A stretch of 23,054 nucleotides of DNA. Source: a virus. The translations under genes were made by a program, and so were the position numbers. Each line of letters begins with the position of its first letter. The stretch's first letter is position 1. Where the stretch lies: IMG/VR virus record IMGVR_UViG_3300009419_000103, positions 1 to 23,054 of that record; one strand, written 5' to 3'. The notes beneath the pieces are model-generated. The model was not told the DNA's origin and did not search any database. It saw only the letters and a program-made list of their open reading frames with translations. Shown here piece by piece: positions 1 through 15,801 of this stretch.

Positions 1-10
1 CAGTCAATAC

Positions 11-721
11 TTATCTTGCCAATATATTGGTTACTGCACCCGCATTGCTTACAAAGCCCACACGGATGAATGGGTGATATCCATTTACATTATAATGGAA
101 TGTGTCTGTTATTTCAGTATAACTATATATTGTACTGATTGGATACCAATCTGTGTTACCAATAGTAGAACCTTCAATCAATACATTACCATAGAAGTCA
201 GTATATGTGGCTTGCAGTGTTAATGTAGGATTGTTGCTTGTGGTATAAACACTAGTATAATATACGACAGAGTTAGAATCAGGTACATATGATCCGTCGT
301 TTGAATACCAATCTGGATTAGGATATGCTTGACCAGTAGGAATAGTTATTTCATTACTAGGAACAAAGCTAGGTAATATGCTATTAACAATATTCATATC
401 ACCGCGGCCGCCTGCATTTTGGTCTACGAATACGGGGTAATCAAATGTGCCTACCGGAATCTCTAATGTGTAATAACATTTTTGTGCTTCAATTTCTTCT
501 AGTTCTCCTGGGTTTAACATCAATGCGGCTATGCCTGTCGCACCTAATTGAATAGTAAGTGCTTTTCTAATAAGGACCGTAGTACCTGTTGCATTTAATA
601 TTCTGCAAGAGATTTCTTTTCCTGTGATATTGACAGGTTTCTGTTCCTGATTAAGGAACTGAAATTGAATTTGATTGTCTACACCTTTGTGTAGAGTAAG
701 TGGCTTGGCATACTGAGGCAT
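11..721 (-). CDS. Beta-rich virion/baseplate-type structural protein
   Basis: The protein is about 236 aa. An open frame extends upstream to 874, but I start at ATG 721 because a strong Shine-Dalgarno (AGGAG, 4 nt spacer) lies directly before it and the upstream extension (Met/Tyr/Phe-rich) does not look like a domain. The N-terminal half (LTLHKGVDNQIQFQFLNQEQ, then alternating hydrophobic strands and CYYTLEIPVG) resembles the small beta-sandwich module of phage baseplate or fibre attachment proteins (BppU-N-like). The C-terminal half is rich in Ser, Thr, Tyr and Asn, as in tail-fibre or decoration proteins. There is no signal peptide or membrane segment. A late-promoter-like box lies upstream at 805-812, fitting late expression of a virion part. 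The structural role is inferred from composition and promoter; the exact protein is unknown. Confidence 0.6.
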   Translation of the reverse strand: MPQYAKPLTLHKGVDNQIQFQFLNQEQKPVNITGKEISCRILNATGTTVLIRKALTIQLGATGIAALMLNPGELEEIEAQKCYYTLEIPVGTFDYPVFVDQNAGGRGDMNIVNSILPSFVPSNEITIPTGQAYPNPDWYSNDGSYVPDSNSVVYYTSVYTTSNNPTLTLQATYTDFYGNVLIEGSTIGNTDWYPISTIYSYTEITDTFHYNVNGYHPFIRVGFVSNAGAVTNILAR

Positions 722-804
722 ATAACTCCTAGGGGAATTTCCTGATAAAAGAATAACGATTTGTCGTTGCGTATAAACGAATACTTGAGTTGAGTACATA
801 AACA

Positions 805-812
805 TATTTATC
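805..812 (-). promoter_or_regulatory. T4-type late promoter box (GATAAATA)
   Basis: On the minus strand GATAAATA differs from the T4 late consensus TATAAATA at one base. It would start transcription near 799, giving a leader of about 78 nt with a good SD before the structural gene at 721. A mirror-image box lies at 838-845. Confidence 0.5.
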
Positions 813-837
813 AAAATATATTGCCAGGCAACCCGAT

Positions 838-845
838 GATAAATA
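838..845 (+). promoter_or_regulatory. T4-type late promoter box (GATAAATA)
   Basis: Plus-strand GATAAATA, one base off TATAAATA, with a predicted start near 851. This favours ATG 866 over ATG 836 for the gene that follows, because 836 would lie upstream of the transcription start. Confidence 0.5.
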
Positions 846-865
846 TTTCGGTCAATACAATAACA

Positions 866-1246
866 ATGATTCAAAACGAATTCTTCCAGAAATTAACTGA
901 AAACCACCCGTTCATCACTATATGTTCATATGCCAACCAAGATTATGTTGGAATCGTACAGAATAGAGATGATATAGTCACCACAATCTATGACTATGGT
1001 GCTATAATTGACCCTATAGTTAAGGAGAAATTCTTAGAATTAGGGGATGTTTGGTGGTGGGAAAGTAATAGATTAGTCCCCATCAATCTATTCTTAAAGG
1101 AAGAATGGATTATGTTCAGACCCTATTTAAGGACTTTCAACAATAAAAGTCTGACTGTAATACATGGTCCTACATGTAGTATAAGTGAACTACATAAACG
1201 CAGGACCAAACGCCGTAGTATTACGCTTGTAAAGCGGATGTTGTAA
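866..1246 (+). CDS. Conserved T4-type phage small protein, function unknown
   Basis: The protein is 126 aa from ATG 866; in-frame ATG 836 and 821 are alternatives. I prefer 866 because the late box at 838-845 would start the transcript near 851 and because MIQNEFFQKL is where the folded protein appears to begin. There is no clear SD. The sequence has a compact beta-rich core (SYANQDYVGIVQNRDD, TIYDYGAI), a Trp triplet (DVWWWESNRLVPINLFL) and a basic tail (KRRTKRR). I believe similar proteins occur in other aquatic T4-type phages, but I know no function. It is one of only two plus-strand genes here. Its last 26 nt overlap tail-to-tail with the DnaE-like gene on the other strand. Confidence 0.7.
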   Translation: MIQNEFFQKLTENHPFITICSYANQDYVGIVQNRDDIVTTIYDYGAIIDPIVKEKFLELGDVWWWESNRLVPINLFLKEEWIMFRPYLRTFNNKSLTVIHGPTCSISELHKRRTKRRSITLVKRML

Positions 1247-1802
1247 GTAAATTCATATGCACTGCAACTAATTGCGAATAACCAATTGCATGGGCTTTCT
1301 TAAAAGAATATCCATCATCTTCTTTATTCCATATAGTTTGACTCACTTCACTCCAACTCTTGCCAATTAAGTGCTTTTTAGCAGGACGAATCAATGCTAA
1401 AAACATTGCTAGTCTAGGGATACTATTAATAGGTTCAGGCATCCTCTGAATACTCTGATAATGATTTGCCAAGTGAATCAGTTTTTCAACAAATTCTCTA
1501 TCATTTAGCTTAGACCAATCAGGTTCACGCATCAATTCAATCAAGTGCCGTTCATCTCGAACCTGAGAGTATACATGCACATTCAATAAGTCTAGTTTGA
1601 AATATCCACGCTTCTCTGCATCTTCATAATGAAGTGCTGACATGTTATTGACAGGATCATATGGAATGTCTGTTATATAAACACCTGTATTGTGTCTACG
1701 CACAGGAGAGACATTACGCATTGAAGCAGGTGTATGAGGGATCAACTTTAGTAATTCATCCCTTGAACCAAAGTCAATGTCAATATCTGAATCTATTCTC
1801 AT
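1221..1802 (-). CDS. Mini DnaE-like (Pol III alpha palm-like) protein
   Basis: The protein is 193 aa, versus roughly 1,100 aa for bacterial DnaE. Several short DnaE landmarks appear in the right order. SDIDIDF (res 5-11) matches E. coli PDFDVDF with D8/D10 at catalytic D401/D403. RHNTGVYI (about res 36-43) matches KHAGGVVI. YFKLDLLNV (res 67-75) matches VKFDFLGL with D71 at catalytic D555. ALIRPAKKHLIGK matches the ALFRPGP segment. FKKAHAIGYSQLVAVHMNLL matches [20 protein letters not shown]. The PHP, most of the fingers, the beta-binding and the OB parts are absent. The start overlaps the exonuclease stop by 4 nt (ATGA), so translation is probably coupled. It may be a minimal polymerase, a primer-end binding factor or a decoy; activity is unproven. 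Homologous small proteins occur, I believe, in other T4-type aquatic phages. Confidence 0.7.
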   Translation of the reverse strand: MRIDSDIDIDFGSRDELLKLIPHTPASMRNVSPVRRHNTGVYITDIPYDPVNNMSALHYEDAEKRGYFKLDLLNVHVYSQVRDERHLIELMREPDWSKLNDREFVEKLIHLANHYQSIQRMPEPINSIPRLAMFLALIRPAKKHLIGKSWSEVSQTIWNKEDDGYSFKKAHAIGYSQLVAVHMNLLTTSALQA

Positions 1803-2356
1803 CTTGCGGGTGTTACCAATCCTGCTTTAATCAATTTCACATAACCTTGTTGTACAACGATTGCTTGGCGTTCAGCATCTTCTACTGCCTTATGGCTTGT
1901 TACATGCCCGCCGTCTTTTAGGTTGACACCAGTGATATCATACAATGTACGGGTGTCTCTGATATCCCAGAAGTTCCAAGGTGTGTTTTTTCCAAGTTGT
2001 TTCCAAGCATGATCCATAACTACCACGTCAAAACTTGCTCCGTTACTCCACGCACCTTTACTACGATTCCAACAAAACTTGTACAATTGATTCATTGCCT
2101 CTTCAAAAGAGACACGGTCTCTGTCACCCATAGCTTCTTCAATTGCTTCAGGTGATTGCTTGCCCCACCATTCCATTGTTGCATCATTAATACTTCGATT
2201 ATAAATCTCTGTTTGATCTTCAATTGTAGGACGAATCTCAATTTTATCGATAATGCCACTACCTTTAGGGTCAAACAATACCGCACCGATAGTAAGAATC
2301 ACACAATCCGGTGTTGTGTCTAGTGATTCAATGTCAATCATTACATCTACTGCCAT
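1799..2356 (-). CDS. dexA: DexA-like DEDDh 3'-5' exonuclease
   Basis: The protein is 185 aa (T4 DexA is 227 aa). It is a DnaQ-fold exonuclease that removes nucleotides from DNA 3' ends using two metal ions. Visible motifs are Exo I MIDIESLDT (D8, E10), Exo II SNGASFDVVVMDHAW (D110) and Exo III SHKAVEDAERQ (H155, D160), the DEDDh pattern. TMEWWGKQSPEA and FWDIRDTRT resemble T4 DexA (TIEWW..QSPEA, FW..RDIRT), which separates it from a generic epsilon subunit. The start has SD AAGGA upstream. It overlaps the DnaE-like gene by ATGA, so an exonuclease and a polymerase-palm-like protein are made from one coupled message. Likely roles are host DNA degradation or 3'-end processing; a proofreading partnership is an inference. 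Confidence 0.85.
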   Translation of the reverse strand: MAVDVMIDIESLDTTPDCVILTIGAVLFDPKGSGIIDKIEIRPTIEDQTEIYNRSINDATMEWWGKQSPEAIEEAMGDRDRVSFEEAMNQLYKFCWNRSKGAWSNGASFDVVVMDHAWKQLGKNTPWNFWDIRDTRTLYDITGVNLKDGGHVTSHKAVEDAERQAIVVQQGYVKLIKAGLVTPAR

Positions 2357-2373
2357 AATATTCCTTTTCTTTA

Positions 2374-2628
2374 TTATACAGTCAAAGCATAGTGAGTGTA
2401 AATCTTTTCGGACATTACAATTGTGTCAGGACTATACCACCATGTGTCACAATATTTTGCCTCGCCGTAATGATAGTCTAGCCATTGTCTAGCAATTGAT
2501 ACATCTTTGGTAATAGCATAAAAGATTCTTTCTTCCCAACCATTATTACCATCAGGAACAGTCTTCTTTAGTTTCCTAAAGTATACCGGTTCTACTTCTA
2601 TAATTTCCTGTGCAGGAAAAAATGTCAT
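2374..2628 (-). CDS. Small array protein, degenerate C-terminal motif
   Basis: The protein is 84 aa. ATG 2628 is chosen because it overlaps the upstream stop as ATGA; an in-frame ATG at 2646 is possible. No known family. The C-terminus WWYSPDTIVMSEKIYTHYAL lines up loosely with the array motif (Trp, beta strand, S-E-K, then an aromatic helix ending in Leu) but lacks the final L-R-W. It is the last small ORF of the packed run and is followed after 17 nt by the exonuclease gene, which has its own SD. Function unknown. Confidence 0.6.
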   Translation of the reverse strand: MTFFPAQEIIEVEPVYFRKLKKTVPDGNNGWEERIFYAITKDVSIARQWLDYHYGEAKYCDTWWYSPDTIVMSEKIYTHYALTV

Positions 2629-2975
2629 GCTTTGAGTGTTTTCCATATGTATTTCTTTTCCAGTATGTCTTGAAAATGTTCTGCTTCATGTTTGTTTCTA
2701 AACACAACACAACGAATCTCATACATGTCCATTAAGTATTCACTATAGTCATGCTTATTACCTTGTACCCAAACAGTAAAATCAAGCCACAGTGTGTCAA
2801 GATCACCGCCATGGAGTAGTATACCCAATCCTACTTCAAAACATTTTACTTCTCCAAACAATATGTCTAGTAACTTTAGACCAGTGTCTGCCTCTTTGAT
2901 ATTCTTAAATGAGGGCCAATGTACTACATGGTTATTTTTTTCAGTTGTATATAATTCAAAAGGTGTATTGTTCAT
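2625..2975 (-). CDS. Small array protein, function unknown
   Basis: The protein is 116 aa, starting at ATG 2975, which overlaps the upstream stop as ATGA. It is acidic and aromatic, with no signal peptide or membrane helix. The segment IRCVVFRNKHEAEHFQDIL near the C-terminus has the strand-turn-helix pattern of the array motif (F-R-N-K-H-E-A-x-x-F), followed by about 11 extra residues instead of the usual immediate stop. It also carries a Gly/Leu-rich middle (GLGILLHGGDLDTLWLDF). No function can be assigned. Confidence 0.6.
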   Translation of the reverse strand: MNNTPFELYTTEKNNHVVHWPSFKNIKEADTGLKLLDILFGEVKCFEVGLGILLHGGDLDTLWLDFTVWVQGNKHDYSEYLMDMYEIRCVVFRNKHEAEHFQDILEKKYIWKTLKA

Positions 2976-3244
2976 TGAAATTTTAATAAAAATATTAGGT
3001 ACTTCTTTTCGTCTACTATCTGATAACCATCTGTTATGTTACCATTGACGATGTTCATCTTTACTCCGTACTTACCTTCAAGGTAATCTTCAAAATCATA
3101 CGCATCAAATTCTGTATATTTGTTTTGTTCCTGATATTCTCTACGCACAAGTTTTAATGCCGCCCAATAATCCCAACGTCTTTTGCGTTGTTCTATGTTA
3201 GGATCATCGTCATCGTAATCTTGAAATGGCGGTACTGTAGTCAT
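2972..3244 (-). CDS. Small array protein with C-terminal FxLxF motif
   Basis: The protein is 90 aa. I start at ATG 3244 (MTTVPPF), which overlaps the previous stop as ATGA, rather than at the in-frame start at 3265. An acidic stretch (DYDDDDPN) is followed by a basic, helical segment (QRKRRWDYWAALKLVRREY). The C-terminus YQIVDEKKYLIFLLKFQ is a clear variant of the array motif: D-E-K-K-Y-x-x-F-x-L-K-F and stop. It is probably cytoplasmic and its function is unknown. Confidence 0.65.
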   Translation of the reverse strand: MTTVPPFQDYDDDDPNIEQRKRRWDYWAALKLVRREYQEQNKYTEFDAYDFEDYLEGKYGVKMNIVNGNITDGYQIVDEKKYLIFLLKFQ

Positions 3245-3459
3245 TTGTATAGTAGTTCGAACCAAGAAGCTAGTTCTTCTTTGTAGAAAGTGAACAGTGT
3301 ATATCTATCATAGAGTACACCATACCGTTCAAGATCATATTCAGGTTTATGATATGAGAAATCAAAATCAGTGCCTTGAACATAGCCTTTAGCCCGTAAT
3401 TCTCTTACTATATCCATCATAGCATCGGGCTTCATATTAGGTAATTTGATTTCAATCAT
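3241..3459 (-). CDS. Small array protein with C-terminal motif
   Basis: The protein is 72 aa, starting at ATG 3459, which overlaps the upstream stop as ATGA. A predicted helix (PDAMMDIVRELRAKGY) is followed by aromatic strands (TDFDFSYHKPEYDL) and then LFTFYKEELASWFELLYK at the C-terminus. That ending aligns with the array motif (F-x-F-x-x-E-x-x-A-x-W-F-x-L, with Y-K in place of R-W). The helix-strand-strand-helix order is the same as in its neighbours. Function unknown. Confidence 0.65.
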   Translation of the reverse strand: MIEIKLPNMKPDAMMDIVRELRAKGYVQGTDFDFSYHKPEYDLERYGVLYDRYTLFTFYKEELASWFELLYK

Positions 3460-3680
3460 GAAGAAAACTTAATCGCAAAAAAAGTGGCAAGTTTTTCATC
3501 TTCTAGTGTAAGATACCATCGCTTTTGGACCATACTTGGCTCCCACTCATTTTTAACTATCCATCCTTGTCCACCGATGCTATTATGTAGATAGTGCATT
3601 CGTGGTCCTACATTCTTAGCAAGCCATTGTTCTTGCTCTCCCGTTAATTTATTATGAGGTAACGGTATCTTTATCGTCAT
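3456..3680 (-). CDS. Small array protein with C-terminal motif
   Basis: The protein is 74 aa from ATG 3680 and overlaps the upstream gene by 29 nt, longer than the 1-13 nt usual in this array. QEQWLAKNVGPRMHY resembles the W-x-x-x-x-x-G helix seen in several array members (for example EKWCKNNLGERY and FNWCVKQFGPEP). It is followed by two Trp-containing strands and ends with RWYLTLEDEKLATFFAIKF, matching F/W-x-x-E-D-E-K-x-A-x-x-F-x-x-K-F. This gives one of the fullest views of the shared helix-strand-strand-helix layout. Function unknown. Confidence 0.65.
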   Translation of the reverse strand: MTIKIPLPHNKLTGEQEQWLAKNVGPRMHYLHNSIGGQGWIVKNEWEPSMVQKRWYLTLEDEKLATFFAIKFSS

Positions 3681-3945
3681 GTGTTAGTAAATCAAATAGT
3701 GTACTGTACTGAGTTTCTGGTTCCATGTGAAAGCCTGTACCCCACACAATCCAAACTTTACGCTTGTATGCTTTCTCCCACCAGATGCGTTTACCTGTTA
3801 CTGTTTTTCGGGGTAATAAAGCAAAGTATTCAGTCCATGGATAACAGTCAGCACCGTCAGTTATAATGTAATAGTCCACTTTTACGTTCCTGTATCGTAT
3901 CAATTCAATATTCCAGCCTAGACTACGGCCCCAATTTATAGCCAT
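3652..3945 (-). CDS. Small Trp-rich array protein, extended C-terminus
   Basis: The protein is 97 aa. ATG 3945 lies inside the last codons of the upstream gene (AAATGGCTATAA carries both the end of the K-W-L-stop sequence and this ATG). It is Trp/Tyr-rich (DCYPWTEYFALLP, IWWEKAYKRKVWIVWG). GFHMEPETQYSTLFDLLTH is a degenerate version of the array motif and is followed by eight charged or polar residues (DDKDTVTS) in the region overlapping the next gene. That suggests a read-through or lost stop relative to its paralogues. Function unknown. Confidence 0.6.
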   Translation of the reverse strand: MAINWGRSLGWNIELIRYRNVKVDYYIITDGADCYPWTEYFALLPRKTVTGKRIWWEKAYKRKVWIVWGTGFHMEPETQYSTLFDLLTHDDKDTVTS

Positions 3946-4196
3946 TTAAGTATGAACCATTCAGCGTCTTGTTTCTTTTCAAAGACAAATGTTCTACCTA
4001 ACTTGGTATGTTTACCCGTGCAGTTTTCATCAATCCATAGTTCAATATCAATTGATTCATACCTGTCTTTTAGTCGTTCTAATTCAACTTTAGTCCAACC
4101 AGTTGCTATTAACATGTCTAACATAATTTCGTTGTCAATTTCTTTTGCTAAGATTCTACTAATCTCTCCTGCAATGTCTTCTACTAAGTCTGACAC
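3936..4196 (-). CDS. Small array protein with full C-terminal motif
   Basis: The protein is 86 aa with a GTG start at 4196, supported by AAGGA 7 nt upstream; no ATG occurs until about residue 25. An N-terminal amphipathic helix (VEDIAGEISRILAKEIDNE) precedes TGWTKVELERLKDRY and a strand segment. The C-terminus RTFVFEKKQDAEWFILKWL is a near-consensus array motif (F-x-F-x-x-K-x-D-A-x-W-F-x-L-K-W). It overlaps the upstream gene by 13 nt and the downstream gene by 10 nt. Function unknown. Confidence 0.65.
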   Translation of the reverse strand: MSDLVEDIAGEISRILAKEIDNEIMLDMLIATGWTKVELERLKDRYESIDIELWIDENCTGKHTKLGRTFVFEKKQDAEWFILKWL

Positions 4197-4471
4197 ATGT
4201 ATTCCTTCATTGTGATTTCTTCATACTCACCTGCGAATGCGATTCTAAAGACTTTTGCGGCTTCACTCCACTCAAACTGAATCACATCATATTCTTTTGG
4301 ACTATCCATTGTTCCGTATACACTAGCCCACTCGACATGGAAGCGATTGAAGCAACCCTTCTCAGGATATGCTTCTGCCCACTGGTACATATCAGTAGTA
4401 CACTTTTTTACTTTGAATCTGTAAGTAAAGTATGGGCGATTATTACCTCCGCCACTATAAAAGTATTCCAT
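4184..4471 (-). CDS. Small protein in array, lacks the shared motif
   Basis: The protein is 95 aa. ATG 4471 shares one base with the upstream stop (TGATG), so re-initiation is likely; the frame is also open to a GTG at 4480. It is rich in aromatic residues (YFYSGGGNNRPYFTYRF, MYQWAEAYPEKGCFNRFHVEW). The C-terminus (FRIAFAGEYEEITMKEYM) does not fit the array motif, so it may be an unrelated insertion or a diverged member. Function unknown. Confidence 0.6.
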   Translation of the reverse strand: MEYFYSGGGNNRPYFTYRFKVKKCTTDMYQWAEAYPEKGCFNRFHVEWASVYGTMDSPKEYDVIQFEWSEAAKVFRIAFAGEYEEITMKEYMCQT

Positions 4472-4722
4472 CAGTTCCACCGTAATAAGAACAATGTCAG
4501 GTCTTCATCGTTGCACAAGAAAATTTCACCTTGTTCTGAGATATTATCTAGCCAACGAGTTCGTTCAATATCATCTTGATATCCTGCAGGGCCTAATGTT
4601 TCAATACACCAAGCACGAATCTCATTACCGTCAACCTCGCCCTTGCCCCTCCAAGATACAGTGTGAATGTTTCGTTCACTACCGTAGTAGTGTTCTGTTT
4701 TATGCGTGAATGGAGTAGTCAT
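4471..4722 (-). CDS. Small array protein with C-terminal LLRW motif
   Basis: The protein is 83 aa. ATG 4722 is chosen because it overlaps the upstream stop as ATGA; ATG 4740 is in frame. RAWCIETLGPAGYQ matches the W-C-x-x-x-x-G helix signature shared with other members (EKWCKNNLGERY, FNWCVKQFGPEP). TRWLDNI gives the central Trp strand and EIFLCNDEDLTLFLLRWN is the C-terminal motif with intact L-R-W. Function unknown. Confidence 0.65.
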   Translation of the reverse strand: MTTPFTHKTEHYYGSERNIHTVSWRGKGEVDGNEIRAWCIETLGPAGYQDDIERTRWLDNISEQGEIFLCNDEDLTLFLLRWN

Positions 4723-5147
4723 CTGTTTAAGATTGCCCACATGTCAAGTTTATTTTTCATTTCTTCCTTCTCCTGATGTGCATTGTAACGACTACGTTCT
4801 GCGGCTTCTCTCATGTATTTTTCAGTAAGAACTTCTTGTCGCAATTGTTCAATCAATTCACTGACCTTCATCGTTTTCATTTCTTCAATTTCGTCTAGTG
4901 CTTGCTTTAGTTGTTCATTGAGATATTCTATCTCATTTTCAAGATGACTGATGTATTGACCAGGAAGATAATCATTGCATGTATCTTTATCTCTAAAGGT
5001 GCAGTCTGTTTGATCCATGCCCGCTCGTTCAAGATCATCTAGGATAGCTCCAGGATGCCGATCCATATATGTAGCAAGTCTGACACGAACAGGGTCGTTG
5101 TCAAATTTAATAGTGTAGTCAATCAATTCATTGTCAGTCATATTCAT
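4719..5147 (-). CDS. Coiled-coil protein in array
   Basis: The protein is 142 aa from ATG 5147, which overlaps the upstream stop as ATGA; ATG 5153 is also in frame. The N-terminal third is a small globular segment (NELIDYTIKFDNDPVRVRLA). From about residue 68 it is almost entirely a charged heptad-like helix (HLENEIEYLNEQLKQALDEI and onwards), predicting a coiled coil and oligomerisation. It lacks the C-terminal array motif, so it may scaffold or cap the neighbouring proteins, or simply be an unrelated gene in the run. Confidence 0.65.
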   Translation of the reverse strand: MNMTDNELIDYTIKFDNDPVRVRLATYMDRHPGAILDDLERAGMDQTDCTFRDKDTCNDYLPGQYISHLENEIEYLNEQLKQALDEIEEMKTMKVSELIEQLRQEVLTEKYMREAAERSRYNAHQEKEEMKNKLDMWAILNR

Positions 5148-5323
5148 CGCCATATTAAGTTAAACCAAACTGCATCTTTATCTTCTACTTCATAGTAGAT
5201 ATCATCATATCCAATCTGCCATGCAGCCCATTCTGTTTTATCCACATAGTTCTTACAGTTCTTTTCTATCCATTCACACTGTATATACCATGTGGTAGGA
5301 CATGATATTGTAACTCTGGTCAC
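5144..5323 (-). CDS. Very small array protein with C-terminal motif
   Basis: The protein is 59 aa if it starts at GTG 5323, which overlaps the upstream stop as GTGA. A GTG at 5344 would add seven residues, and there is no ATG in the frame. TTWYIQCEWIEKNCKNY gives a short strand plus a Trp/Cys helix, TEWAAWQIGY the central Trp strand, and DIYYEVEDKDAVWFNLIWR a textbook C-terminal motif (E-D-K-D-A-x-W-F-x-L-x-W). It is probably close to the minimal unit of the family. Function unknown. Confidence 0.6.
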   Translation of the reverse strand: MTRVTISCPTTWYIQCEWIEKNCKNYVDKTEWAAWQIGYDDIYYEVEDKDAVWFNLIWR

Positions 5324-5733
5324 GCCCACCTCAACATGAACCACTCATAGTCTTTGGCATCACGAAATCTAAATGTTCTATCAACATTGAAATACCATCG
5401 TGTCCATGCGTCAGTATATTTAGGTTCGGGGCCAAATTGTTTCACGCACCAGTTGAACGCTGCCTGTCCGTCTCTAGGCAGTTTTGCTTCATACCACTTG
5501 GCACGACTGAACTTATACTTGTGTTCTGACTTCATAGGTAATACAATTTCTTTGCAAAGATTATTTTGGAACCAAGTATTTAGAGTACTCTTGCCAGTGT
5601 ATTGCACGGCGCTGTACAAAGTCATTTGGCCCTTTTTGAATCCACCCTGATTCATCCGGTTCCAGAGTACTTGTTGGTACGAAAGTAAGGGGAAAGGTTC
5701 TATGCCTTCAGTTACGTCTTTAAGAATGTTCAT
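5320..5733 (-). CDS. P-loop-like segment joined to array motif domain
   Basis: The protein is 137 aa from ATG 5733, which overlaps the upstream stop as ATGA. Residues about 30-51 read GGFKKGQMTLYS followed by AVQYTGKST, a match to the Walker A pattern [AG]-x4-G-K-[ST]. The preceding GGFKKGQ resembles the lead-in of RecA/DnaB-type ATPase cores. There is no room for a complete ATPase fold and no Walker B is visible. From about residue 90 it becomes an ordinary array member: AAFNWCVKQFGPEP, WTRWYF, then RTFRFRDAKDYEWFMLRWA. It looks like a fusion of a truncated P-loop segment to the array domain. Nucleotide binding is unproven. Confidence 0.6.
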   Translation of the reverse strand: MNILKDVTEGIEPFPLLSYQQVLWNRMNQGGFKKGQMTLYSAVQYTGKSTLNTWFQNNLCKEIVLPMKSEHKYKFSRAKWYEAKLPRDGQAAFNWCVKQFGPEPKYTDAWTRWYFNVDRTFRFRDAKDYEWFMLRWA

Positions 5734-6047
5734 TTTACCAACTTTGTAATTATGTTGTACTTTTCAATCGCATCACATACATTCTTCCAGGCATTGAGTT
5801 CTGCTGGTAGTGGTTGCAGTGAAATATGATTGTCTGGATCATGTTCAGGACAGTCTGTCCAAATACTGACTCTAATAGAATGAGAGTGCGGAGCTTTAGA
5901 CTCTCGCCATTCTGTATAATAGTTGTCCCAGTAATATAATCCGTAGCCTTCTTCGCTATCACCAAATGATGGCAATTTATAGGCTAGGTAGTGCCCACTA
6001 ACTTTAGGGCAAATATCTTCTTCGTGTTTCCAAATGCTTGTTATCAT
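5730..6047 (-). CDS. DUF551-like small protein
   Basis: The protein is 105 aa. ATG 6047 shares a base with the upstream stop (TGATG). SIWKHEEDICPKVSGHYLAY near the N-terminus, then YYWDNYYTEWRES and VSIWTDCP, recall the layout of DUF551-type phage proteins (W near the start, P-x-x-x-G-x-Y-L-x-Y, a Trp strand, then a final W-x-x-x-P). The match is by eye and weak. It has no array motif and ends in a helix. Function unknown in this family. Confidence 0.5.
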   Translation of the reverse strand: MITSIWKHEEDICPKVSGHYLAYKLPSFGDSEEGYGLYYWDNYYTEWRESKAPHSHSIRVSIWTDCPEHDPDNHISLQPLPAELNAWKNVCDAIEKYNIITKLVK

Positions 6048-6301
6048 CAGAATCTCAACTTAAACCATACACAGTCTCGTTCATATCTGAATTTTACACT
6101 AATAGTCAATACTTGTCTAGTCCAACGGCAATGTCTTTCTGGATTATCTATATTTTTGTACAACCATAGTACTACTTCTTTGTGTACTAAATCTAACTCA
6201 GTCTGATTATGGGTAACTATATCATGGGTATGCCAAAAAGGATGGTCATCTTCCCAACCTCTAGTCCAATCATAGTGTTCTGGGTAATATTTTATTGCCA
6301 T
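6047..6301 (-). CDS. Small array protein with C-terminal FKLRF motif
   Basis: The protein is 84 aa. Its ATG at 6301 lies inside AAATGGCAATAA, which also encodes the last residues and stop of the upstream gene, the same arrangement as at 3945. The N-terminus is rich in Trp and His (EHYDWTRGWEDDHPFWHTHD). VVLWLYKNIDNPERHCRWTR supplies the helix and central Trp, and SVKFRYERDCVWFKLRF is the C-terminal motif, with F replacing the last W. Function unknown. Confidence 0.65.
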   Translation of the reverse strand: MAIKYYPEHYDWTRGWEDDHPFWHTHDIVTHNQTELDLVHKEVVLWLYKNIDNPERHCRWTRQVLTISVKFRYERDCVWFKLRF

Positions 6302-6504
6302 TTCAATCTAAACCAAAAAGCATCTTTTTCACTTTTAAAATGCCAGCGATAACTTTTAAAACTTATGTCGCTTGCCCAAAAACAAGTCCATGTACCAGTC
6401 TTGCGTTCTATAGGAGAATATCGTTCGCCTAGATTATTCTTGCACCATTTCTCGGCTTCGTAGCCTAGCTTGTTAGTAATTACAGTATATGGTAAATCTT
6501 TCAT
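6292..6504 (-). CDS. Small array protein with full motif (prototype)
   Basis: The protein is 70 aa from ATG 6504, which overlaps the upstream stop as ATGA; a GTG at 6510 is also in frame. It shows every shared element: helix EAEKWCKNNLGERY, strand TWTCFW, strand YRWHF and ending KSEKDAFWFRLKWQ. I use it as the reference for the family: helix with W-C and G, two aromatic strands, then a helix ending in L-[RK]-W within one residue of the stop. There is no membrane segment or signal peptide. Function unknown. Confidence 0.7.
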   Translation of the reverse strand: MKDLPYTVITNKLGYEAEKWCKNNLGERYSPIERKTGTWTCFWASDISFKSYRWHFKSEKDAFWFRLKWQ

Positions 6505-6932
6505 GCCCACCTCAACAAAAACATCATGTAATCTTTTTCTTCTTTGAATGCTACAAAGATATAGTCGCCGCCACCCATGTCATTGAATTCCCACTCCATT
6601 CCAGTAGATGGATACTTGATGACTCTATGCTCATCTACACGACATTTAAACCTTGTATATTTCTCACACCAGTCGTAGATATCAGAAGCACCGTACTTTA
6701 TGCCGCCGGGGCCATAGTCGTAAATCAATTCGTAGGCGTGATGATTTCTGTTTTCAATACAGTGGAAGTACTCGTAACCTTTGTAGAAATCTTTTACTTT
6801 ATTTGCACAGTAAAAAACATCAGGATCACGCATTCTACGATACACATCCCATGACTTGTATCCACTCTTTTTGAGTTTTCTTTCGGCTCGCTTCTTACGA
6901 ACCCATGCTTTGATTCTACTTATCCGCAACAT
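6501..6932 (-). CDS. Basic N-terminus plus array C-terminal motif
   Basis: The protein is 143 aa, with ATG 6932 overlapping the end of the upstream gene by 13 nt. The first 30 residues are strongly basic (AWVRKKRAERKLKKSGYKSW) and could bind nucleic acid. A middle part (FYKGYEYFHCIENRNHHAYE, YDYGPGGIKYGASDIYDWCE) precedes the ending YIFVAFKEEKDYMMFLLRWA, a full C-terminal motif. It is one of the two longest motif-bearing members and looks like the shared domain with an added N-terminal half. I believe relatives exist in other aquatic T4-type phages; function unknown. Confidence 0.65.
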   Translation of the reverse strand: MLRISRIKAWVRKKRAERKLKKSGYKSWDVYRRMRDPDVFYCANKVKDFYKGYEYFHCIENRNHHAYELIYDYGPGGIKYGASDIYDWCEKYTRFKCRVDEHRVIKYPSTGMEWEFNDMGGGDYIFVAFKEEKDYMMFLLRWA

Positions 6933-7174
6933 AATTCAAACATCATAGCATCTTTTTCGTCTAAGAACCAAAACTCAATATGAGTCTTAGTAAATCTACA
7001 TGTATACTTTTCTCCAGGTAGTCCGAACAGTTCAATTGCAGTAGCACAGGTATCATTCCACATTTTTATCCCGGCAGTAGTCCTGACAGTCTCATTAAAG
7101 GGTATCCTTACACGGAAATCGTGGTCAATATCAATACCCCCCAGCGTGTAAGATTTCTTTAACCGTTCTGACAT
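6920..7174 (-). CDS. Small array protein, first in the array
   Basis: The protein is 84 aa. ATG 7174 lies 44 nt inside the upstream zinc-finger-like gene. The N-terminus has beta-rich HDFRVRIPFNETV, followed by a helix with Cys and Gly (MWNDTCATAIELFGLPG) and IEFWFLDEKDAMMFELCCG. It keeps D-E-K-D-A-x-x-F-x-L but ends in C-C-G instead of R-W. It is the upstream-most gene carrying the motif. Function unknown. Confidence 0.6.
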   Translation of the reverse strand: MSERLKKSYTLGGIDIDHDFRVRIPFNETVRTTAGIKMWNDTCATAIELFGLPGEKYTCRFTKTHIEFWFLDEKDAMMFELCCG

Positions 7175-7850
7175 TCTCTGGTTCTCGATGAAACTTCAGT
7201 GCCCATTTCTCAGGATCAATATAGTCAAATACCATCTTAACATGTCCCTGCTCTAGTGATTCTACAAACTTGATACCACTCTCACTTTGAAACAACATCC
7301 AGGGACTGATTCTGCCCCTAGTAATCTCTAAACAAATTCGATTGACATTACCATATCGCAAATAATCTCTGCTTTGAATTTTTTCATTTTCTGCTAATGC
7401 TATTGTTGTTTCAATGCTACGATGAATAGCATCTAACGGATCTTCTGTACGAATGTATTCAAGTAGATAGTTTGTATAGTTTGTGTCAGTACACCATGTG
7501 TCAATTCTAATTTGACTTTTAACTAACCAGTCAGCATATCTACTAACATTCAATGCATTAATCTCTACACAATGATTACCAAACTTTACAAACGCTGTAT
7601 AGTATGGACTCTTAATGAATTCTTCATTAGTCTTTGCTTTCTTACTTGCACTATTCTTTTTGTAAAATTGAACAAAGGCTTGATATGCAATACGATTACC
7701 TTGTAGGTCCTTATTCATCCATCTGCGTTTAGATTCGCACATGTGGGTGAGCAATGTAGATTCACGCAAGTACTCACCTGTGCAAAACTCACATTTAAAT
7801 TTAGGCTTACCTATTGCCTCTATCTCTTTCGTATTGCTCAATTTCTTCAT
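7131..7850 (-). CDS. Conserved phage protein with C2HC zinc-finger-like motif
   Basis: The protein is 239 aa from ATG 7850 and overlaps the gp62 gene by 44 nt. Residues about 18-40 hold KCEFC followed 12 residues later by H-x-C (LLTHMC), then KRRW: a C-x2-C-x12-H-x-C arrangement typical of a small zinc-binding finger that could contact nucleic acid. The remainder is helical with conserved-looking blocks (SPYYTAFVKFGNHC, ITRGRISPWMLFQSESG). I recognise it as a widespread conserved hypothetical of T4-type aquatic phages but cannot name a function. Its place directly after gp62 suggests replication or transcription control. Confidence 0.7.
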   Translation of the reverse strand: MKKLSNTKEIEAIGKPKFKCEFCTGEYLRESTLLTHMCESKRRWMNKDLQGNRIAYQAFVQFYKKNSASKKAKTNEEFIKSPYYTAFVKFGNHCVEINALNVSRYADWLVKSQIRIDTWCTDTNYTNYLLEYIRTEDPLDAIHRSIETTIALAENEKIQSRDYLRYGNVNRICLEITRGRISPWMLFQSESGIKFVESLEQGHVKMVFDYIDPEKWALKFHREPENVRTVKEILHAGGY

Positions 7851-8403
7851 CTGTGACCATTTGACTTAGTGTTTCAATATCTGCTATTTTCATCTCTGGG
7901 TATACAGTAGCCAAATAACATTTCTTTTTCTGTTCTGTTACATACGCTTTTGACACTTCAGTAATATCATCATCATCTGCTTTAGGATATATTTTCTTAT
8001 AATACTCTTTTATATCTTTTAGTTGAGCAGGTTCTTTTAACAAACTGACCTTCTCTTTAATCTGCGGGATCCATGGATGGAATTGTTTTCCCAAACCCGG
8101 ACTTGAAGCGCATAACATTAACCATTGTAGTTTAGGATGCTTCTGTACATATTCATTAAAGATATATTTGTTAGCGTGATAGTCCACACTTCGTGCATAA
8201 TAACCTGCAATCTCCCCTGAGCCTTTGATGTAACTCATGTATCTAACCAACATGAATGATGTAAACTTCTTTTGTTGCTCTGGTGGCAACTTATCATAGA
8301 AAGTATAATCTTTCCTATCTAATGCCGCAATTGCATCAAACAAAGGAAAGTCTTGCTTCTCAAGTTGTTCGTCTTTAGGGACTGATGCTTTTTTAGTTGC
8401 CAT
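7807..8403 (-). CDS. 62: Clamp-loader small subunit (gp62-like)
   Basis: The protein is 198 aa (T4 gp62 is 187 aa). gp62 assembles with four copies of the gp44 ATPase to load the gp45 sliding clamp. Support is by pattern: FPLFDAIAALDRKDYTFYDK at the N-terminus, FTSFMLVRYMS, KYIFNEYVQKHPKLQWLMLC and QFHPWIPQIKE follow the order of gp62 relatives (F-x-x-F-M-L-x-R-x-M-S, then H-P-x-L). It ends with a helical tail (VSKAYVTEQKKK). There is no Walker motif, as expected for this non-ATPase subunit. gp44 and gp45 are not in the window, so the usual 45-44-62 cluster is split or the other genes lie elsewhere. It heads the long packed run. Confidence 0.7.
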   Translation of the reverse strand: MATKKASVPKDEQLEKQDFPLFDAIAALDRKDYTFYDKLPPEQQKKFTSFMLVRYMSYIKGSGEIAGYYARSVDYHANKYIFNEYVQKHPKLQWLMLCASSPGLGKQFHPWIPQIKEKVSLLKEPAQLKDIKEYYKKIYPKADDDDITEVSKAYVTEQKKKCYLATVYPEMKIADIETLSQMVTDEEIEQYERDRGNR

Positions 8404-8419
8404 TAGAATGCCTTATAAT

Positions 8420-8448
8420 AGTCTTTTTTGTAGTTTATGATAAATACA
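8420..8448 (-). promoter_or_regulatory. Weak sigma70-like promoter for gp62 run
   Basis: The minus strand reads TTATCA, a 17-nt spacer, then TATTAT (4/6 and 5/6 matches to TTGACA/TATAAT), ending about 17 nt before the gp62 start at 8403. It overlaps the oppositely oriented late box of the HNH gene. AT-rich chance matches are possible. Confidence 0.3.
8439..8446 (+). promoter_or_regulatory. T4-type late promoter box for HNH gene
   Basis: Plus-strand GATAAATA, one base off the T4 late consensus, with only four bases (CAAT) before the ATG at 8451. The expected transcription start coincides within a base with the initiator codon, implying a leaderless message. Confidence 0.5.
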
Positions 8449-8450
8449 AT

Positions 8451-9128
8451 ATGTACTTATCAAACAAATATTCTAGATGTTATTTTAACATCATTAACCG
8501 AGCTAAGTCAAGATTATTGGACGCATCAATATATGTTGAAAAACATCATATTGTGCCCAAATCATTAGGCGGGACAAATGACCCTGACAACTTAGTAGTG
8601 TTGACCGCACGTGAGCATTTAATCTGCCATAGATTATTAGTCAAAATGACTGAGAGTACAGCTAAATCTAAGATGGCATTTGCGGCTTGGAGAATGGTTT
8701 TTATGGGCAATAAACATAAACGTCATATTGTTACTTCACGTACTTATGAAGTCATTAAATTTGAAATGGCTGAAGCTAGAAGAAATAGCAAAGGTTCCTA
8801 TAAACATTCACTAGAAAGCAAAGAAAAAATAAGTAAGGGTAATAAAGGAAAACGATTAGGAAAATCGTTACCAACTGAGTGGCGTGAAAAAATAGGTGAA
8901 TCACGTAAAGGGGAAGTTCGAGGTCCGTTACCAAAATCAACTACTCAAAAAATAAGCGAAACACTCACTGGTAAAAAAAGAGAAGAATTTCCTGAATCAC
9001 ATAAGTCTAATATTTCAGCCGGGAGAATAGGGAAACGACAGTACAATAATGGAATCAATAGTATATTGTGTTTCCCGGGAATTGAACCTGAAGGATATGT
9101 ACTGGGTAGGCTTACTCAAAAGGCTTGA
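8451..9128 (+). CDS. HNH homing endonuclease with NUMOD repeats
   Basis: The protein is 225 aa from ATG 8451; the open frame runs back to 8397, but the late box at 8439-8446 sits just before 8451. The HNH core YVEKHHIVPKSLGGTNDPDN followed by LVVLTAREHLICHRLL has H32/H33, N47, H56 and H60. Three or so NUMOD3-type DNA-binding repeats follow (S-x-E-S-K-E-K-I-S-K-G-N-K-G-K, then TEWREKIGESRKGE and STTQKISETLTGKK). It is a freestanding selfish nuclease that cuts DNA and spreads by recombination. It sits on the opposite strand between gp62 and the UvsW block and its end overlaps the neighbouring gene by 13 nt. Its own late promoter fits the behaviour of T4 homing genes. Confidence 0.9.
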   Translation: MYLSNKYSRCYFNIINRAKSRLLDASIYVEKHHIVPKSLGGTNDPDNLVVLTAREHLICHRLLVKMTESTAKSKMAFAAWRMVFMGNKHKRHIVTSRTYEVIKFEMAEARRNSKGSYKHSLESKEKISKGNKGKRLGKSLPTEWREKIGESRKGEVRGPLPKSTTQKISETLTGKKREEFPESHKSNISAGRIGKRQYNNGINSILCFPGIEPEGYVLGRLTQKA

Positions 9129-9616
9129 CTATAATCTACAATTTCACAGTTACGACTAATCTCTTTTACGAAATACACACATCGCGGTTTAAGACCATCA
9201 TCAATCGGTACACATAAGAACTGTCCGTTCTTCAATCGAGGTGCATACCATGTTACATCATGGTAAATGTCTACAATCTCAATGGGAACAAATGAAGGGC
9301 TAAAACTAGTGAGTGGATTAAACTCAAACGCATTGAATCCCCTGTCATTGATACTTGTAAGAGGCAATGTTTCTAAGTCACCGTGTTCTTGTTCACCGAT
9401 AAGGATCTGCCAATCAATAGGCATCTTAATTGTGCTATTACCGATCTTCAATACAAGTGCAGGACTATTGAATGATTCTAAAAAGATTAGTGGGATATAA
9501 TGATAATCTACATTGCTTGGGTTACTGTTATCTAAGATAGCAAAACGCAAATCATCAATTTCTTCAGGTAGTGTTTCTAAGTTATAGAATTCGTTGTCTA
9601 GGGTTAATATACGCAT
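9116..9616 (-). CDS. Conserved T4-type phage protein, function unknown
   Basis: The protein is 166 aa from ATG 9616, 11 nt after the UvsW stop, so it is in the UvsW transcription unit. The sequence is beta-rich with the blocks ILTLDNEFYNLETLPEEIDD, DYHYIPLIFLESFNSPALVL, PLTSINDRGFNAFEFNP and DVTWYAPRLKNGQFLCVP. I recognise these as a conserved hypothetical of aquatic T4-type phages, with no known catalytic motif. The last 13 nt overlap the HNH gene on the other strand, meaning the endonuclease gene arrived or extended right up to this gene's stop. Confidence 0.7.
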   Translation of the reverse strand: MRILTLDNEFYNLETLPEEIDDLRFAILDNSNPSNVDYHYIPLIFLESFNSPALVLKIGNSTIKMPIDWQILIGEQEHGDLETLPLTSINDRGFNAFEFNPLTSFSPSFVPIEIVDIYHDVTWYAPRLKNGQFLCVPIDDGLKPRCVYFVKEISRNCEIVDYSQAF

Positions 9617-9627
9617 AATGTATTATA

Positions 9628-11115
9628 TCACTTATACTTTAGTTTTTCTACATCAAACGGGTAGTTAGCTTCTTTGTAGAATGCTTTCCGTTGTGTCAAG
9701 TGTCGTTTGGCAAACTTACAATTACTTGTAATGTCCCAAATCTGCACAAAATCTTTATCTTCTGCTTTACGAATGCCACGACCGATACTTTGAATAACTC
9801 TTACGAAACTCTTACCCGGTTCTAATAGCATCACATTAAAGATACGAGGGATGTTAATACCAACTGCCGCGACACCATATGTAGCAATGATAATCTTATT
9901 GGTAGCAGTAGCAATGTCATCATAGTGTTCGGTTCTAGTTGTACCCTTAGTACCACCTGATACGAATACTACACTATCCTTTAACACCGCAAAACTATTA
10001 TCCTCAGTAAGTTTCTGATACAACAGTTGACCTGCTTCAATTCTATCAACTAGAATTAATGTGTTACCACTGTTCTTAACTGTATTAGATAACTCAGCAA
10101 TTTTTTGCATTCGTTTTTCATCACTGGTCAAGAATTTAAGTTCACTTTGATAGTTAGTAAACTCCATACCATCTTGTAATTGAACGATGTTCACATGACA
10201 CTGTGATAGTACACCCATGTCTTGTAATGTGCTTGCCGACAATTGATTAATGACAGGACCTAAACTTACAGTCAATGACATTGATTCATGTTTAGCTTTA
10301 GGAATTGTTCCAGTCAATCCCCAACGCAATGGGATACGACTCATTACACCTGTCAACAATGTTTTAAGCACATCAGCTTTTGCTTGATGTACTTCATCTA
10401 CAATAACACATACAACACCCTCAATAAAGTCTTGGAATGGTACTTCTGCTTCGCCTGCTTTAGTGTTCTTCAACATGTTACCTAGACTCTGCCATGTACA
10501 AATTGTATGCGTCTTGTCATACTCTTTGCGTCCACCGTAATACACACCTACATCTAGACCCAAGTTGATGTAATCTTTTTCTGTTTGTGTGACAAGACTA
10601 GTGTTAGGTACAATGACAATACTGCGACCATATTGTTCTACACAACTTGACAATGCGGCTGTGATTAATGTCTTGCCTGCACCAGTTGCAATCTCTTGCA
10701 GTGACTGCGGGTTCTTTAAATAGTTATTGATAATCTCAATTTGATAGTCACGCAATACTACAGGCTGTCCCTCCATCGGATGACCTTTAGGCCAGTTCTT
10801 GTGCTTGAATGTATCCTCGGACACTTCAGTAAATGTGAATGTTGTTTGATAGTCTCTGGTATCATCCAGTTCAATATCATAACCAGCCTGATCTAGTAAT
10901 GGCAATATCTCTGGTAACAAGTTAATATATGTACTGCCACCTAGCGCAAAAAAACTGCTCTTACCATTCCATCTACCTAACCTTACTGCAGGAAGATATC
11001 TTGCCCCGGGAACTTCAAACTCAAACATTTTCATCAATGTCTTGCGGTCTCCCAGTTCTAGTCCCTCAAGTTTTACATTCACTTCATCTCTAATTATTAA
11101 CTTACATTCTTTCAT
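9628..11115 (-). CDS. uvsW: UvsW-like superfamily 2 DNA helicase
   Basis: The protein is 495 aa (T4 UvsW is about 500 aa). UvsW branch-migrates and reverses stalled forks, dissolves R-loops and drives the switch to recombination-dependent replication. Motifs visible: Q-like VLRDYQIEII (about 120-129), Walker A ATGAGKT (143-149), Walker B DEVH (240-243), motif III LTGT (267-270), and motif VI QSIGRGIR (442-449) with its arginine fingers. The N-terminal 115 residues (RLGRWNGKSSFFALGG) match the UvsW N-domain style. The start ATG overlaps the stop of the upstream gene as ATGA, so the two are co-translated. In T4, uvsW is expressed late; a weak late-like box at 12154-12161 would agree. Confidence 0.93.
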   Translation of the reverse strand: MKECKLIIRDEVNVKLEGLELGDRKTLMKMFEFEVPGARYLPAVRLGRWNGKSSFFALGGSTYINLLPEILPLLDQAGYDIELDDTRDYQTTFTFTEVSEDTFKHKNWPKGHPMEGQPVVLRDYQIEIINNYLKNPQSLQEIATGAGKTLITAALSSCVEQYGRSIVIVPNTSLVTQTEKDYINLGLDVGVYYGGRKEYDKTHTICTWQSLGNMLKNTKAGEAEVPFQDFIEGVVCVIVDEVHQAKADVLKTLLTGVMSRIPLRWGLTGTIPKAKHESMSLTVSLGPVINQLSASTLQDMGVLSQCHVNIVQLQDGMEFTNYQSELKFLTSDEKRMQKIAELSNTVKNSGNTLILVDRIEAGQLLYQKLTEDNSFAVLKDSVVFVSGGTKGTTRTEHYDDIATATNKIIIATYGVAAVGINIPRIFNVMLLEPGKSFVRVIQSIGRGIRKAEDKDFVQIWDITSNCKFAKRHLTQRKAFYKEANYPFDVEKLKYK

Positions 11116-12119
11116 TTAGGTCCTAAATCTATTGGTTCCGAGTTTACAAATTTTATTATTTTAAACAGCTTCATCGGCGTTTCATTAACTAATGAAAAAT
11201 TACCACGTTGATACACTATAACACTATTCTCATAGTTTTTCAAGTCTTTAGGATTCGTAAGAACATTAATAGTTGTATTATGAATATTTAATTTAGAATT
11301 AGTTAAAAACGCTTTAGGTTCACAAATTGCATCACATCCAAATTCTTCTAACCATTCTATTGCTAATTGAGTATCCCTCAATTCTATTTCAACTTGAAAA
11401 TTTATAGCAAGTCTTACCTTAGCAGGGATTTCTGTCTCTAGCAAATGGTCTGTGACCGATTGGTCGATAGCAATACCATATTTAACTAATGTTGCTATTG
11501 TTTTTAAATCGTCTGTTATTTCAATGTCCTTAATTGCTTCATACAAATGTTCATTCAATGCGGCAATGTAGTAATGTGCCTTGTAGACTAAAGTGGGCGT
11601 CCAGTATTTAACATTCTCATATACGCTAAGTCTCTCAACAATTTGTGTAACCTTTTCGCAGTAGTTCAATATAGAATAGTGGTCTGCTGTCAAGTACAAT
11701 AATTCTTTCAAATTGGTATGACTATATTCACCTTCATATTGTCGTCTATCTTTGATCCACTGTAATGAATAGATAGGGTTCTTTTTAAGTGCTGTTAAAA
11801 AGTTTTTATTAAAAGGAGATCGTAGAATCAGTTTGTCATTCTCTATTTTGATTGACGCTCCTGTATATTCAGGGATGCTTTCTACTATGTTAACATCCCA
11901 AGACCGAGTCAGTACTTCGTCTACTTCAATTTTTAATTGAGAGAATTGTCGTTTATATTTACCTGCTACCTTTCTGAACAAAAGGTCCTGATTACTAGTG
12001 ATCCGATTATGTTGTGTGATGTAAAGGGTAAGATTGTTTACGAATTGGTCATCATATCTGCTCAGTCTAATATTACTAAGCATCCATGTTGCAAGTTCAT
12101 TAAGTGTTTTGAAATCCAT
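11112..12119 (-). CDS. Unknown protein translationally coupled to UvsW
   Basis: The protein is 335 aa from ATG 12119. The frame is open to 12245, but that extension runs through the terminator hairpin at 12171-12188, so the short start is right. A mostly helical N-terminus (MDFKTLNELATWMLSNIRLS) is followed by SPFNKNFLTALKKNPIYSLQ then WIKDRRQYEG. This resembles the HARP/SMARCAL-type 'F-x-x-x-hhx-x-hK-x-x-P...W' strand-helix module associated with annealing helicases; the similarity is suggestive only. No ATPase motifs are present. The ATGA overlap with uvsW argues for a functional partnership, perhaps DNA targeting for the helicase. Confidence 0.65.
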   Translation of the reverse strand: MDFKTLNELATWMLSNIRLSRYDDQFVNNLTLYITQHNRITSNQDLLFRKVAGKYKRQFSQLKIEVDEVLTRSWDVNIVESIPEYTGASIKIENDKLILRSPFNKNFLTALKKNPIYSLQWIKDRRQYEGEYSHTNLKELLYLTADHYSILNYCEKVTQIVERLSVYENVKYWTPTLVYKAHYYIAALNEHLYEAIKDIEITDDLKTIATLVKYGIAIDQSVTDHLLETEIPAKVRLAINFQVEIELRDTQLAIEWLEEFGCDAICEPKAFLTNSKLNIHNTTINVLTNPKDLKNYENSVIVYQRGNFSLVNETPMKLFKIIKFVNSEPIDLGPK

Positions 12120-12125
12120 CTTGTT

Positions 12126-12154
12126 AGTATAGCAAAACAGTATACAGAATGCAA
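12126..12154 (-). promoter_or_regulatory. Sigma70-like promoter abutting the start codon
   Basis: The minus strand reads TTGCAT, a 17-nt spacer, then TATACT, with AACAAG between the -10 and ATG 12119. The start point would be the A of ATG. A second reading (TTGCCT, 16-nt spacer, TATACT at 12139-12144) would give a 13-nt leader. No SD precedes the gene. Confidence 0.45.
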
Positions 12155-12161
12155 ATTTATA
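12154..12161 (-). promoter_or_regulatory. Possible late box upstream of UvsW operon
   Basis: The minus strand reads TATAAATT, 7 of 8 bases of the T4 late consensus, just downstream of the terminator. The predicted start is near 12148, a 29-nt leader. It is weak alone, but T4 uvsW is known to be late-expressed. Confidence 0.3.
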
Positions 12162-12164
12162 GGC

Positions 12165-12188
12165 AAAAAAAGGGGACCGAAGTCCCCT
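12165..12188 (-). terminator. Strong intrinsic terminator (UUCG tetraloop)
   Basis: On the minus strand a 7-bp stem AGGGGAC / GTCCCCT closes a TTCG tetraloop and is followed by an unbroken T run (7 T) to 12165. It lies 17 nt after the stop of the gene at 12205 and insulates the ATPase operon from the UvsW operon. Confidence 0.92.
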
Positions 12189-12204
12189 AAAAATGCTATA
12201 CCAA

Positions 12205-13005: not shown

Positions 13006-13006
13006 A

Positions 13007-13357
13007 TTAGTCTTTCAATGTATGCCAAGTTGCCATTCGTTCAGTCTCAAACTTTTCATACTGATCTAGGATCACGCATGTGATGAAATAGATTACTGCT
13101 ACAATATACCCGATAACGTACACCGTTTTAAAATTGCTTATGCTCTCTGCATCAGTATCACCAACAACCAACCCAATCACACCTGCAATAAAAATTCCGA
13201 TAGATGATGTAATAATCCAGGCGAAAAATCCCATCCCACGATGATCTTGGTACGTGTCCATATATTTTCTATGTAGGCTCATTGGGAGACTGAATAGTGT
13301 TTTGAAAAATCTTTTCATCAACCAACCAATGAAATAGAAACCTGTTTTGACTTTCAT
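13007..13357 (-). CDS. Small two-helix membrane protein
   Basis: The protein is 116 aa from ATG 13357, overlapping the upstream stop as ATGA. Two hydrophobic segments are visible: FFAWIITSSIGIFIAGVIGL (about res 44-66) and VYVIGYIVAVIYFITCVIL (about 79-97). They are separated by an acidic loop (DTDAESISN). A basic, aromatic N-terminus (MKRFFKTLF) suggests a cytoplasmic N-terminus with both ends inside. There is no cleavable signal peptide and no lysis-like catalytic motif. It is co-expressed with an AAA+ ATPase, so it may anchor a membrane-associated complex, but a holin-like or host-envelope role cannot be excluded. Function unknown. Confidence 0.65.
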   Translation of the reverse strand: MKVKTGFYFIGWLMKRFFKTLFSLPMSLHRKYMDTYQDHRGMGFFAWIITSSIGIFIAGVIGLVVGDTDAESISNFKTVYVIGYIVAVIYFITCVILDQYEKFETERMATWHTLKD

Positions 13358-13599: not shown

Positions 13600-13653
13600 A
13601 TCTTCCTTATCGAAGAGGACTTATTGACATGGCCTCTACGCACACTGCAGGGG

Positions 13654-14655: not shown

Positions 14656-14679
14656 AACTTCTCCTGTGTGTTAATGATT

Positions 14680-14693
14680 CAATACAAGTATTG
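14680..14693. promoter_or_regulatory. Palindromic operator-like site, copy 1
   Basis: Inverted repeat CAATACAAGTATTG (6-bp arms, 2-nt centre) covers the end of the -10 and the transcription start. It is identical to the site at 14951-14964, as expected for a repressor binding site. Confidence 0.6.
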
Positions 14694-14927: not shown

Positions 14928-14950
14928 AAACAACTCCTAGTTCTCAGTGT

Positions 14951-14989: not shown

Positions 14990-15001
14990 ATTTTGGTATT
15001 G

Positions 15002-15799: not shown

Positions 15800-15801
15800 A
15801 A

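Follow-up and report, generated by a model that had tools for sequence, protein, structure and literature searches.

Why should a long run of small phage genes, highly diverged in sequence and packed almost without gaps, close on nearly the same few residues? The question is raised by a 23 kb virus record (23,054 nucleotides in full, hereafter the window), in which positions 2374-7174 of the minus strand are filled by 17 small ORFs, nearly all overlapping their neighbours and many ending in a version of F-x-L-[RK]-W. The 17 consecutive ORFs with almost no intergenic bases that were reported in the initial annotation were all present, with coordinates unchanged. The array is bounded upstream by a C2H2-like gene (7131-7850, minus strand; phrog_11058, E 4e-57) and downstream by a DexA-type exonuclease gene (1799-2356, minus strand; phrog_255, E 8e-42), and the same two genes bound the site in relatives. 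It lies among T4-type replication and recombination genes, also on the minus strand, encoding gp32-like, UvsX, UvsY-like, UvsW and DexA-like proteins and a small DnaE-like protein, and the phage belongs to the T4 superfamily and is probably a jumbo phage. The phage was additionally noted to be a large, freshwater one. Promoters and terminators within the array showed no excess over shuffled sequences.

The ORFs had been proposed to be tandem paralogues with a common ending, and profile searches upheld the proposal, with membership settling at 12-13 genes. A profile HMM built from clusters holding no window sequence recovered 14 of the 17 array ORFs (E 1e-11 to 0.03), all of them ahead of the best non-array ORF of the window (E 0.43), and every one of nine leave-one-cluster-out runs recovered the held-out cluster (E 8e-12 to 4e-5). 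When the last nine residues were cut from both the model and its targets, array genes continued to fill the nine top places (E 8e-6 to 0.065); homology therefore extends past the motif, in agreement with paralogy. Motif-ending ORFs were strand specific when the window was taken together with 48 related loci (129 of 1,086 sense vs. 4 of 1,271 antisense ORFs), all 383 HMM matches in a second set of loci fell on the strand that encodes the array, and family matches end 0-2 residues before the stop. Across 84 members, in the numbering of gene C, the conserved columns are E16, W20, (C21), G26, W39, F56, D61, F65, L67 and W69, with E16, W20, W39, F56, D61, F65 and L67 kept in 63-98%. The family has no name. 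No consistent match for the 84 members was found in Pfam or PHROGs, and none for the window genes in NCBIfam; the PADLOC HMMs for anti-phage defence gave a single stray weak match among the 84, and tblastn searches of phage and plasmid collections with single members returned nothing or chance matches only.

Iteration left ten firm members (A, B, C, D, F, G, I, K, M and Q) and two weaker ones (N and O), and J is counted as a member because its orthologue (L034:9796-10050, ending FKLRWL) belongs to the family. By these sequence criteria 12-13 of the 17 genes are assigned to one family, with P doubtful and E, H and L unrelated; the latter three are real genes too, since selection acts on them. 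Read in the direction of transcription on the minus strand, the array opens with family gene A (6920-7174), whose place behind the C2H2-like gene is fixed; its product ends FELCCG, and orthologues occur in 56 loci (iterated HMM E 7e-16). Gene B (6501-6932) joins a basic N-terminal extension to the domain (E 2e-7, with no window sequences in the model), and its LRW codons contain GAGGTGG (6507-6513, minus strand), a putative Shine-Dalgarno sequence for gene C as judged from the sequence and codon statistics. Gene C (6292-6504; 70 aa) starts at the ATGA at 6504, and gene D (6047-6301; iterated E 3e-18) starts at an ATG that spans the Lys and Trp codons of C (AAATGG). These are followed by gene E (5730-6047), a real array gene outside the family (dN/dS 0.17-0.20; no HMM match), and by family gene F (5320-5733), which has an additional N-terminal segment with a P-loop-like GxxxxGKST. 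For family gene G (ORF 5144-5344) the likely start is the GTG at 5323, in a GTGA overlap, so that the gene would span 5144-5323; a GAGGTGG stands ahead of this start at 5332-5326 inside gene F, and the orthologue in L064 has an ATGA start at the same place. Gene H (4719-5153), encoding a coiled-coil protein outside the family (dN/dS about 0-0.18), precedes family gene I (4471-4740; E 5e-7) and family gene J (4184-4471, within ORF 4184-4480), which starts at a TGATG on the stop of I and has a degenerate motif with an additional C-terminal tail beyond it. Family gene K (3936-4196; E 1e-11) was found in 45 loci, and the non-member L (3652-3945) starts at an ATG lying within K's Lys-Trp codons. 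Family gene M (3456-3680; E 8e-5, iterated 4e-10) has the degenerate end FAIKFSS, and N (3241-3459; E 3e-4; 46 loci) ends in a degenerate FELLYK in the window and in FMLRWG in its orthologues. Genes O (2972-3265; E 1e-4), a divergent member, and P (2625-2975; E 0.011, not significant once iterated) are both conserved near the array tail, and family gene Q (2374-2646; iterated E 2e-4) is the last.

The helix-strand-strand-helix domain described initially matches the AlphaFold2 models of the two members that were modelled. Gene C is predicted to be beta-alpha-beta-beta-alpha (pLDDT 87.7), with the FxLxW end forming part of the last helix, and O, the most divergent member, is predicted separately as alpha-alpha-beta-beta-alpha (pLDDT 79, with only its own orthologues as input), sharing the alpha-beta-beta-alpha C-terminal core and thus agreeing with the shared fold that had been expected. 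The PDB gave no match to the family by sequence, and the best by fold had E 1.4 and probability 0.35. PII-like, RRM, KH and ferredoxin-like families were considered and set aside, the resemblance not being significant and no solved structure matching. Searched against a library of structures predicted for viral proteins, C was matched best by small uncharacterised proteins from uncultured Caudovirales.

About 150 viral loci, from related contigs that are metagenomic, were retrieved via the neighbour gene and single members, and the family has hundreds of relatives in environmental phages. A search with the gene D group found 356 relatives in IMG/VR viral contigs, and the same kind of search of 84,980 bacterial and archaeal genomes found none. 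Between the same two boundary genes, the number of genes ranges from 1 to about 20 across relatives, bearing out the expectation of variable copy number, and two arrays occur on one contig of 364 kb. By HMM, hypothetical proteins of three named phages belong to the same family: 41 matches, spread over many clusters, in the sequence records of Sinorhizobium phage Phosso (PV764938), four in Atu_ph07 and three in PA5oct. Eleven further named phages, including T4, P-SSM2, HTVC008M, KVP40, phiM12, phiKZ, Munch and G, had no family match; the idea of like endings in marine T4-like phages was accordingly not borne out among the phages searched.

Between orthologues, dN/dS ranged from 0 to 0.50 (mostly 0.05-0.3) for every gene with orthologues close enough, Q having none; the genes are thus under purifying selection. 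The duplications are old, since 122 of 124 members most resemble a gene of another phage and not the adjacent gene. Gene A is usually first and O-P-(Q) last, with the middle of the array reshuffled, and both orders were seen for 21 pairs of orthologous groups. As read from these sequence comparisons, the array consists of old orthologous groups that have been gained, lost and reshuffled, and recent tandem duplication is rejected on the 122 best matches in other genomes.

As to function, the role ranked first, at a little under an even chance, is that of accessory proteins with separate intracellular targets, in host takeover or counter-defence; it fits because the proteins are small, their content varies at a fixed site, the cellular genomes searched are without them and selection within groups is purifying. 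The main alternatives, ranked after it, are an accessory role in replication and a hetero-oligomer. That the proteins bind nucleic acid in phage replication is unlikely: the site does lie among UvsW, UvsX, UvsY, gp32 and DexA, and the fold loosely recalls ferredoxin-like, RRM and KH domains, but the resemblance is weak, no PDB match is better than E 1.4, and the members have no common basic character, since their isoelectric points span 4.4 to 9.4. Less favoured again is a single hetero-oligomeric complex of paralogous subunits, in which coupling would serve stoichiometry. Subunits of heteromeric complexes are enriched among overlapping gene pairs (PMC10666635), and the common fold and strict co-orientation are in keeping with such a complex; however, a gene count of 1 to about 20 and a reshuffled order are hard to reconcile with a fixed complex, and in Phosso the copies lie dispersed over several clusters. 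An arms-race family arising by recent repeated duplication under diversifying selection, with products engaging variable host targets, is improbable. This was the first interpretation of the locus, of which paralogy, a common fold and varying copy number have stood while diversifying selection has not; the high divergence of the paralogues, the variation at one site, the small proteins and the lack of cellular relatives in the 84,980 genomes would all suit it, but dN/dS lies far below 1 and nearly all members match best in other genomes.

For the common ending, the codons were informative. Of 58 non-redundant members, 46 (79%) use AGG for the motif Arg, compared with 32 of 367 Arg codons (9%) in the gene bodies (p 2e-29); the AGG share in controls was 5-12% overall, at 5% for the 15 codons immediately before the motif and 6% for the final four codons of other genes that overlap. 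In a replication restricted to members sharing under 60% identity with the first set, AGG was used in 15 of 35 cases (43%) vs. 24 of 277 (p 1e-6). The preceding Leu codon is mostly TTG, and the junction reads TTGAGGTGG; this contains the Shine-Dalgarno core GAGGTGG, after which comes an overlap of the ATGA or TGATG type. An R/K codon that ends in A places the start codon of the following gene, an ATG, within the R/K-W codons (AAATGG, AGATGG). Stop-overlap starts go with G-ending codons, and ATG starts within Lys/Arg-Trp with A-ending ones. For 141 of 143 members, an ORF begins within the junction or immediately after it; together with the AGG bias, this places stop-start overlap and a signal inside the upstream gene, as in a translationally coupled array. 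DNA conservation is limited to TTGAGGTGGNNATGA and is about zero beyond the stop.

The Phosso copies, besides being scattered, differ from those of the window in ending FKL[TAR]W with ordinary codons and without the GAGGTGG signal. The F, L and W are thus protein constraints, because they are kept there without a Shine-Dalgarno sequence, whereas R encoded by AGG is, on the codon patterns, a DNA constraint specific to the lineage of the window, and the AGG state probably arose later than the constraint on F, L and W. The near-perfect C-terminal conservation would accordingly have a partly non-protein cause, the codons also holding the signals that initiate the following gene. Against a dual-use signal, the AGG bias is weaker in the distant relatives and missing in Phosso, and in these phages just 24% of large ORFs have a Shine-Dalgarno-like site. 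That the peptide serves as a tag for sorting or packaging is very improbable: it does lie 0-2 residues from the stop, but it is predicted to belong to the last helix of the domain, and the PA5oct homologues carry no mass-spectrometry note in their record, as some of their neighbours do. Scarcely credible is the explanation of the ending as a mere by-product of overlapping start signals in unrelated proteins, because, clearly as the DNA signal shapes the R/K codon, the HMM without the last nine residues still ranks array genes first, the conserved residues of gene C extend from E16 to L67, and FxLxW is kept in Phosso without the signal.

Comparison of filled and empty sites gave 38 events representing 12 distinct inserts, and in all 12 the best single crossover lay 0-25 nt before a stop. 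The four clearest inserts fit clean one-gene insertions (119, 118, 116 and 114 of 120 positions matching). In the relatives without gene C (L064-L067), the breakpoint is within the motif codons; the sequence tracks gene B through AGGTGG and then gene D from TGGCAATAAAAT on. Breakpoint position alone is no proof of junction-driven recombination, because only insertions at junctions spare both overlapping neighbours, and selection for intact genes alone could give this pattern.

Combined, these results make it probable that the locus is a cassette array of self-initiating units with dual-use terminal codons. Single-gene cassettes would follow one another head to tail in the replication-gene region, most of them encoding proteins of 60-140 aa that belong to one old, diverged family and carry a predicted C-terminal beta-alpha-beta-beta-alpha domain. 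The L-[RK]-W codons would be used twice, closing the last helix as protein and providing an initiation signal as DNA, either as TTG AGG TGG, a Shine-Dalgarno core just ahead of the ATGA/TGATG overlap, or as AAATGG or AGATGG enclosing the ATG of the next gene. Each gene would then supply the start signal for whichever gene follows, and therefore cassettes could insert, drop or reorder without breaking translation. The junction signals may be inferred to act in translation, and the shared junction DNA, besides selection for intact genes, may help to place crossovers. More tentatively, and at less than an even chance, this may be an integrase-free phage cassette system, in which the protein end is kept partly as a portable ribosome-binding site and recombination point and the family has spread because each copy makes the next insert translatable.

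Like integron arrays, the phage array has single-gene cassettes in one orientation, with number and order variable at one site. Unlike them, it has no attC-like conserved element beyond 15 nt, conservation stopping at the junction, and no tyrosine recombinase in the seven records searched. Integrase-driven cassettes were rejected on this basis: PF00589 was found neither in the window nor in six related records (the seven include contigs of 352 and 364 kb, and the records may be fragments), and the search was positive in 14 of 14 control genomes. A homing endonuclease was also rejected as the driver, because the HNH gene beside the locus occurs in the window and, as a distant relative, in just one related locus. 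Lineage-specific expansions of paralogues are described for jumbo phages in the portion of PMC7824862 that was consulted; Bacillus phage G, for example, has about 35 copies of a zinc ribbon. As there, one small domain has been greatly expanded in a giant phage; the array family, not mentioned in that portion, differs in its fold, in showing no evident zinc site and in its tandem, overlapping genes with a common junction.

The proposed signal would explain an odd protein motif by a nucleic-acid function, and offers a testable route by which large phages may build arrays of small accessory genes. Termination-reinitiation coupling at ATGA/TGATG overlaps with an intragenic Shine-Dalgarno sequence has been described (Huber et al. 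2019, PMC6728339; 2023, PMC10666635), and the array resembles these cases in its -4 and -1 overlaps and in a Shine-Dalgarno core within the upstream gene. It differs from them in that the conserved C-terminal codons of one family carry the signal and in that most junctions, in arrays of up to about 20 genes, are alike.

In gene F, a member of the array family (window 5320-5733, minus strand), and in its orthologues in the related viral loci L064 (4187-4672) and L027 (3833-4309), the family domain is preceded on its N-terminal side by a P-loop-like segment, GF[KR]xG[QE]M...GRQTGKS. This segment, which has no PHROG match, resembles the opening strand and loop of an ATPase of the RecA/DnaB type, with the remainder absent. 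Among the array genes, conservation was strongest for the non-family gene H (window 4719-5153, minus strand), which reaches 99% identity in some relatives with dN near 0; it encodes a coiled-coil protein with no relation to the array family.

Two homing endonuclease genes lie within the window. The HNH/NUMOD3 gene (8397-9128, plus strand), an insertion oriented opposite to the C2H2-like boundary gene (7131-7850) and lying 550 nt upstream of it, had a single, distant match among the related loci, and the GIY-YIG/NUMOD3 gene (16509-17267, minus strand) is directly downstream of the UvsX gene.

Beyond the DexA-type exonuclease gene, the window encodes a small DnaE-like DNA polymerase III alpha fragment (1221-1802, minus strand; phrog_11778) and, at the module's far end, a conserved opposite-strand ORF of unknown function (821-1246, plus strand; phrog_11637). 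Annotated genes like the DnaE-like fragment are also present in Sinorhizobium phage Phosso (PV764938), in which family members at 1-20000 and 92000-120000 (L091 and L092) occur within runs of small hypothetical genes intermixed with tRNA and nucleotide-metabolism genes.
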